The translations under genes and the position numbers were made by a program. A stretch of 64,000 nt of DNA, from contig SVPU01000004.1 in assembly GCA_015065685.1 (NCBI GenBank), forward strand, positions 62,001 through 126,000, written 5' to 3'. This document shows, piece after piece, positions 49,513-49,805 of this stretch. The DNA comes from Oscillospiraceae bacterium (lineage in GTDB: Bacteria > Bacillota > Clostridia > Oscillospirales > Acutalibacteraceae). How positions within the stretch are numbered: position 1 is the stretch's first letter; every line of letters starts with the position of its first letter. The notes under the pieces are model-generated. The model saw nothing but the letters and a program-made list of their open reading frames with translations, was not told the DNA's origin and made no database searches.

Positions 49513-49689
49513 TTAAGATGCCTTGTAAAAACAGTTTTGAGATTCAACAACCTTAAATTTGCGCCTTTTAAAAGATGCACAAATGCGCTTTTCAAAAGCG
49601 ATTAATTTCTTCTCGTTAAAGATGCCCCAAACAACTGCGGCAAATAATAAAACCTCAAAAATTGTGCTTAATGTGAATCCAAATGTCAT
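49513..49689 (-). CDS. SOS-controlled 58-residue membrane microprotein
   Basis: ATG at 49689 with GGAGG 7 bases upstream; an earlier in-frame TTG would lie inside the promoter. The protein has one hydrophobic helix (about residues 3-24, with a buried Glu) followed by a basic tail (EKRICASFKRRKFK) and a short polar end with two more residues of interest, Cys52 and the aromatic pair beside it. A consensus promoter and a perfect LexA-type box precede it. By size, topology and control it resembles SOS-induced membrane division inhibitors (YneA, SosA, SidA types) but lacks recognisable similarity; a membrane toxin is the alternative. Confidence 0.75.
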   Translation of the reverse strand: MTFGFTLSTIFEVLLFAAVVWGIFNEKKLIAFEKRICASFKRRKFKVVESQNCFYKAS

Positions 49690-49703
49690 ATCATTACCTC
49701 CAC

Positions 49704-49717
49704 CGAACAAATGTTCG
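49704..49717. promoter_or_regulatory. LexA (SOS) box
   Basis: CGAACAAATGTTCG, a perfect CGAAC-N4-GTTCG palindrome as bound by Gram-positive LexA. It lies between the -10 element and the ribosome site, where LexA would block initiation. Confidence 0.85.
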
Positions 49718-49725
49718 TTATGCTT

Positions 49726-49754
49726 ATTATACCGAATGAAACTGCATTTGTCAA
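49726..49754 (-). promoter_or_regulatory. Promoter of the SOS microprotein gene
   Basis: On the minus strand TTGACA, exactly 17 bases, TATAAT: full consensus, so strong when LexA is removed. Confidence 0.9.
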
Positions 49755-49805
49755 GCATTTTTTGACAATTTTTTTATTATTTTTTCTTTCGGCTTTATAC
49801 TCATT

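Follow-up and report, generated by a model that had tools for sequence, protein, structure and literature searches.

A conserved gene for a predicted membrane microprotein behind a LexA-type operator, a plausible SOS division inhibitor in Clostridia

The window analysed here is a stretch of 64,000 bases of DNA from an Oscillospiraceae bacterium, and it carries on its minus strand a gene of 58 codons, the features of which are collected in Table 1. A sequence-only reading of this DNA had described a promoter of the form TTGACA-17-TATAAT, an SOS box between the -10 element and the ribosome site, then GGAGG, ATG and 58 codons, and every part of this layout can be read directly. On the minus strand the operator reads CGAACATTTGTTCG from 49717 to 49704, with 8 bases separating it from TATAAT, and the leader of the gene is predicted from the sequence to be about 30 nt long. 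A frame of 81 codons beginning at 49758 overlaps the promoter and was rejected as the gene.

Table 1. Features of the microprotein locus, with positions in the window.
Feature	Position	Strand	Basis
CDS, 58-codon predicted membrane microprotein	49513..49689, stop included	minus	read directly; relatives; dN/dS
ATG start	49689-49687	minus	read directly
GGAGG ribosome-binding site	49697..49701	minus	read directly
LexA-type operator CGAACAAATGTTCG, between -10 and ribosome site	49704..49717	.	read directly; shuffles; conservation
-10 element TATAAT	49726..49731	minus	read directly; identical in 33/33 aligned promoters
-35 element TTGACA, 17-base spacer to -10	49749..49754	minus	sequence and spacer length identical in 33/33

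The promoter alignment comprised 33 sequences, 31 from the genus and 2 from a neighbouring genus. GAACN4GTTC is present in all 33 and CGAAC/GTTCG in 30, the other 3 differing at the outermost bases only. All 33 spacers between the -35 and -10 elements differ in sequence, and mean pairwise identity reaches 0.97 in the box arms and 0.78 in the box core, compared with 0.31 in the inner 12 spacer bases. The distance of the GAAC core from the -10 element is 8-9 bases in 17 promoters, 11 in 1 and 14-16 in 15. Since the box arms do not covary, DNA binding is favoured over an RNA hairpin. The flanking genes, judged by eye, differ among the 33 loci, 5 of which end before the neighbour on one side, and a fixed operon partner was rejected because no constant partner is found among these variable neighbours. 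A terminator-like hairpin follows the stop in many of the loci, also by eye. At locus L024, from one genus member, an mraZ-like gene lies 218 bases after the microprotein gene, an arrangement absent from the other loci read; mraZ opens the cluster of division and wall genes.

The distribution of gene and box in the genus was followed by two kinds of search. With the single sequence, the gene was found in 33 of 60 genomes, all among the 37 of the genus, and no match was obtained in 23 genomes from other families of the order. A profile search of seven genomes without the exact box recovered the gene in two, G008 and G430, each of which carries AGAACAAATGTTCG, and found no gene in G005, G014, G026, G030 and G436 (57, 64, 96, 96 and 94% complete), so that the five gene-less genomes of the genus are also without the exact box. 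The gene is present in 41 of 46 genus genomes, a count that mixes genomes 57-99% complete, and GAACN4GTTC lies in its promoter in 41 of 41; the frame and the box, which had been proposed for a search among relatives, are thus conserved there. The starts chosen by script are incorrect in L023 and L029 and uncertain in L006 and L016, the box counts being unaffected. In 9 of the 11 pairs tested dN was 0.05-0.30 vs dS of 0.40-2.05, with ratios of 0.09-0.53, dS being undefined in the other 2, and differences at the three codon positions over all pairs were 0.44, 0.27 and 0.58. An RNA-only element was rejected, since dN is below dS in all of the 9 pairs with computable dS.

When one mismatch was allowed, the window contained 3 box sites, one of them exact, against a shuffle mean of 0.82, a count of 3 being attained in 1 of 100 shuffles. 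Over the 24 contigs of the genome, 1,481,746 bases in all, the exact CGAACNNNNGTTYG occurs once, at the microprotein promoter; a mirror pattern, which does not serve as a strict control, has 6 forward and 5 reverse sites. Within one mismatch of CGAACNNNNGTTCG there are 11 places in the genome vs 79 for the mirror. The ten places other than the microprotein site were judged from 1.5 kb on each side, with gene labels assigned by eye: six lie in long frames, one in the tmRNA gene and one in an apparent tRNA gene, and the remaining two are the lexA box and a site some 380 bases away from the next start, with no promoter-like surroundings. By inspection, only the microprotein site and the lexA site among the 11 have the look of a promoter with its operator. 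Across the genus, exact CGAACN4GTTCG occurs at 45 places in 39 of 46 genomes, and each of the 39 has one before the microprotein gene. In the genus the box is outnumbered by its mirror pattern (45 vs 199 places, the latter at 0-12 per genome) and is thus rare, not enriched, so that the case for it is made by where it lies and how well it is conserved and not by how often it occurs. A chance palindrome was rejected on the uniqueness of the box in the genome, its placement in the genus and the identity of its arms against that of the spacer. Six of the 45 exact boxes lie elsewhere, two by dinB-like genes and the others in G007, G020 and G024 (two). The boxes that adjoin dinB-like polymerase genes, in two genus members (L065 1501, L093 1501), are perfect SOS boxes.

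The genome encodes one LexA (169 bits, over the cut-off). Its alignment to LexAs of solved structure shows that the Ala-Gly cleavage site is preserved, as are the serine and the lysine; the roles of these residues are established knowledge. The LexA on which the sequence-only reading depended is therefore present and of the cleavable type, and its own promoter carries CGAATAAATGTTCG upstream of the lexA start, the same box with one mismatch. Two same-strand transporter-like frames precede lexA, which is located on contig C22, the microprotein gene being on C12; no lexA was seen beside the microprotein gene among the neighbours shown for the 33 loci, read by eye and one-sided in 5. Of the 46 genus genomes, 43 have a LexA-family match and 42 of these matches pass the cut-off; G020 (no LexA match) and G024 (below the cut-off), which are 85-86% complete, carry both gene and box. 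In 30 lexA loci, drawn from the 43 genus genomes with a match, the best site of the lexA promoter agrees with the consensus at 9 of 10 positions in 18, at 8 in 10 and at 7 in 2, and none matches all ten, so that lexA has the weaker box and the microprotein gene the full one. In E. coli such an operator gradient goes with late, tightly held genes. In this genome (G000), recA (L059 1080-2216) lies 10 bases behind a prmC-like gene. It is without a near-consensus SOS box, and the SOS regulon may for that reason be very small, with lexA and the microprotein gene as its members within one mismatch. Taken together, the LexA of the genome, the like box at lexA and the joint conservation of frame and box uphold the earlier proposal of LexA control, which on this sequence evidence is very likely.

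In the 33 members of the protein family, Glu12, Phe24, Glu26 and Glu33 are invariant and Met1, Trp21, Phe32 and Arg42 nearly so. A single hydrophobic stretch covers approximately residues 5-24, with a mean Kyte-Doolittle value of 2.1, and is followed by a conserved segment, F-x-E-x-K/R-L-I-A-F-E. Lysine and arginine are absent before the helix in 32 of the 33 members and in 64 of 68 wider members, and the mean net charge after the helix is +6.3 in the 33; from this charge distribution the positive-inside rule predicts that the N-terminus lies outside and the basic tail inside. The tail varies (54 to 119 residues in the 68 wider members) and the helix and juxtamembrane motif are constant. The product had been said to match no recognised family, and the searches agree: the window protein has no match in Pfam or NCBIfam, and a profile search of the PDB gave none. 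Over 33 and 23 members, Pfam and NCBIfam returned scattered matches (best E 0.035), none convincing, and at E values up to 1 LysM is absent from the Pfam families listed for the 33 A1 and the 23 A2 members. Matches to PHROGs are weak, the best over 33 members being phrog_23321, an unnamed family (E 0.0041, 11 of 33 members), and one of 23 members weakly matches a PADLOC defence model, a 4TM effector, at E 0.0084. The microprotein represents a new protein family, probably one more variant among small membrane effectors of the SOS response.

Outside the genus, 62 of 80 members (L168-L247) end in alanine (VA 25, CA 14, AA 12, IA 6), a residue that makes up 10.7% of the rest of those proteins, although the members are related and not independent. 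Within the genus the terminal alanine occurs in only 5 of 31 members, and the window protein ends KAS. The tmRNA tags called in 20 of 24 loci, this genome's own excepted, all end AA, which resembles the -VA and -CA protein ends only loosely. That the C-terminal alanine acts as a degron is a guess.

Relatives were found throughout one taxonomic family. The A1 profile matched 14 of 394 genomes of the order, all within this family, and the A2 profile matched 2 of 391 genomes of the class, both of the genus, and 146 of 398 genomes of the taxonomic family in 51 of 135 genera, mobile copies counted too. No relative outside the taxonomic family appeared in the order and class samples; in the class and family scans no more than 13 candidates per genome were scored in the first round, and some members may have been missed. 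The named records with relatives are MAGs of Oscillospiraceae or Clostridia bacterium, two of them from sheep colon or cecum. In the first locus set, from which L053 was dropped as a chance match, exact GAACN4GTTC is present in 9 of 10 chromosomal-looking members. Among 20 family-scan loci there are 16 exact boxes, 3 near boxes and 1 mobile-looking locus with none, it being noted that at least L161 and L163 repeat L050 and L046 and that the proteins of L152 and L159 are those of L035 and L036. A further set of 80 wider members, from 79 genomes, was taken among the family-scan matches listed, leaving out genus rows, rows read before, the majority of those interrupted by in-frame stops and several with low scores. 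By a strict count 35 of these have exact GAACN4GTTC, 18 more have an element that overlaps the -35 and 27 have neither. This further element, CGAACATTTGTNTTGACA, overlaps the -35 in many other genera, and CGAACATTTG overlaps the -35 in 32 of the 80. With a weight matrix built from the 33 promoters, a significant site, defined as one that outscores 98% or more of 300 shuffles, is found in 65 members and none in 15; with 80 tests at 0.02, one or two chance passes are expected, and the weak L209 may be one.

The 15 box-less members include all 5 listed from genus g421, the 3 that were examined out of 5 from g485 and one copy each from two two-copy genomes; in one of the 15, L198, a weak arrangement of two boxes can be made out by eye. 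In g421 the palindrome GTACCANNAATGGTAC lies approximately 55-70 bases before the microprotein start in L174, L178, L181 and L183, and L221 has it in part. In the lexA-like promoters of this genus (L270, L272-L274) the usual box is replaced by TCTAAATGAAACAAATTTTTCATTTAGA or a closely similar sequence, and the LexA-like protein of the genus is divergent in the DNA-binding part. Co-evolution of LexA and operator was not found in g421, the palindromes of the microprotein and lexA-like promoters being different. Of 30 genomes examined for LexA, representing 25 of the 27 strictly box-less rows and 5 with a box, 27 have a match over the cut-off, so that a missing lexA does not account for the members without a box; among the three genomes lacking such a match, G890 is box-less and G1083 and G1020 have near-boxes. 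The 15 of 80 members without a box and the differing palindromes of g421 argue against a uniform LexA rule.

Copies were also encountered in phage and mobile surroundings. Three viral contigs encode relatives, none with GAACN4GTTC upstream: L134, of 80 residues, near ATPase-type genes (by eye); L135, of 46 residues, directly after a cro-like gene divergent from an S24-type repressor (by eye), its GAACN4GTTC sitting inside the next gene; and L137, of 55 residues. L135 weakly matches phrog_31638, a phage family of unknown function with 45 positions (E 0.0014), and this family matches 2 of the 33 A1 members, at best with E 0.32. Box-less relatives at L041, L046 and L051 lie among mobile-looking genes, next to PAPS-reductase-like or DUF3102-like genes (by eye). 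No match was obtained when three mobile or phage relatives were compared by tblastn with phage records and the chromosomal relative L045 with plasmid records, or in viral scans with the L041 and L046 proteins.

Comparison can be made with several known systems, each cited here from part of its source. YneA of Bacillus subtilis is SOS-induced and blocks septal wall synthesis through FtsW (PMC13396833). The microprotein resembles YneA and ChiZ in its probable SOS control, small size and one predicted transmembrane helix, whereas YneA has an extracellular LysM domain and the microprotein is without LysM, has a tail predicted to be cytoplasmic and is not encoded beside lexA. SosA of Staphylococcus aureus, with 77 residues and one helix, is LexA-controlled and its C-terminus is involved in turnover (PMC6851548). 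As far as descriptions go, SosA is like the microprotein in its small size, single helix, LexA control and a C-terminus possibly involved in turnover, but its C-terminus is extracellular and its gene divergent from lexA, unlike the predicted inside tail and the location away from lexA seen here. SidA of Caulobacter, a small SOS-induced membrane-anchored division inhibitor (PMC6851548, PMC13396833), is by its description alike in size, membrane anchor and SOS control and belongs to a different phylum. The likeness to SOS inhibitors or membrane toxins drawn in the sequence-only reading thus stands for size and control and fails for topology, which is predicted to be opposite to that of YneA and SosA. 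In C. thermocellum a YneA-like gene is divergent from lexA (PMC8457756); lexA has other neighbours here, so another inhibitor could fill that role. Parts of further sources report, as a precedent in Clostridia, that a C. difficile lexA mutant filaments (PMC4689574), predict a LexA regulon for C. difficile (PMC4234289) and, in a title, call TisB a dormancy-inducing membrane toxin (PMC11575346). The gut SOS meta-regulon works from COGs, and the parts examined name no such gene (PMC3998124); in a small-protein catalogue 'SOS' occurs in the reference list only (PMC11364881). The literature search, mostly of open papers, returned nothing on this microprotein family or on such an SOS factor in these gut Clostridia.

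The following process is proposed for the microprotein. LexA bound to the operator just downstream of the full-consensus promoter would block transcription of the gene. Upon DNA damage, activated RecA would lead to self-cleavage of LexA and the microprotein would be produced at a high level. It would then insert into the membrane as one helix, with the N-terminus outside and the motif and basic tail in the cytoplasm, and most probably bind a membrane division protein and so delay division during DNA repair. The C-terminal -VA, -CA or -AA of many relatives from other genera may allow later removal by proteases. An effector that must stay off fits the full-consensus operator and promoter, the frequent terminator-like hairpin and the lack of a constant partner, and a membrane effector with acute action is likely. 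Its assignment as a division inhibitor is a plausible prediction, and the explanation as a whole, an SOS-induced microprotein that delays division through a membrane division protein, is given a probability of about 0.5. Several points weigh against it: the predicted topology opposite to YneA and SosA, the gene and box in two genomes where no LexA passes the cut-off (G020, G024), the three genomes 94-96% complete without the gene, recA without a near-consensus box and the 15 of 80 wider relatives without a significant box. Against turnover through the C-terminal alanine stands the lack of this residue in the window protein and in 26 of 31 members from the genus.

Four other explanations share part of this evidence. 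The microprotein could be a LexA-repressed membrane-anchored regulator with another target, such as envelope synthesis, transport, nucleoid anchoring or a protease, which would suit a varying tail behind a fixed helix and juxtamembrane motif and the fact that no division partner has been identified. We consider this unlikely, because promoter and operator suggest an acute effector and the small Gram-positive SOS membrane proteins treated in parts of PMC6851548 and PMC13396833 are division inhibitors. Small size, one helix, a mean net charge of +6 after the helix and a full-consensus operator would equally be expected of a LexA-repressed, TisB-like toxin that depolarises the membrane and causes dormancy or death instead of blocking the divisome. 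tisB has a long structured leader and encodes a type I toxin with an antisense RNA antitoxin. The predicted leader of about 30 nt leaves no room for such a structure, there is no constant neighbour, and a conserved segment beyond the helix with four invariant residues would seem to exceed the need of a pore peptide, so a toxin is rather improbable.

The box-less relatives on viral contigs and among mobile-looking genes raise the question of origin, namely that a phage early gene was domesticated and recruited under LexA, its chromosomal copy perhaps acting on prophages or resident elements. As genomes of the taxonomic family dominate the matches, even with mobile copies included, and the phage copies may equally be captured host genes, little weight is given to this origin. 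The palindrome itself might be a leader RNA hairpin or the site of another repressor, given that CGAAC-N4-GTTCG can form a 5-bp stem in a short leader and that another palindrome occurs in g421. Three findings make this very improbable: arms GAAC and GTTC that are identical in 33 of 33 promoters without covariation, the one-mismatch copy before lexA and the element overlapping the -35 in wider members. Delay of division by a LexA-controlled membrane microprotein is the reading retained. A broader joint reading is tentative and rather doubtful: a family-wide DNA-damage checkpoint in gut Clostridia, in which the gene with the best LexA operator would encode a new microprotein family of inverted topology, the juxtamembrane motif would stop division, a C-terminal alanine degron would operate in most other genera and phages would use copies early.

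Gram-positive SOS division inhibitors have been described from Bacillus, Staphylococcus and Mycobacterium in the parts of PMC13396833 and PMC6851548 drawn on here. The present family, spread over 51 genera, offers a direct handle on the DNA-damage response of mostly uncultured gut Clostridia, for example to fluoroquinolones, and its inverted topology, if true, would add to the ways in which division can be influenced from the membrane.
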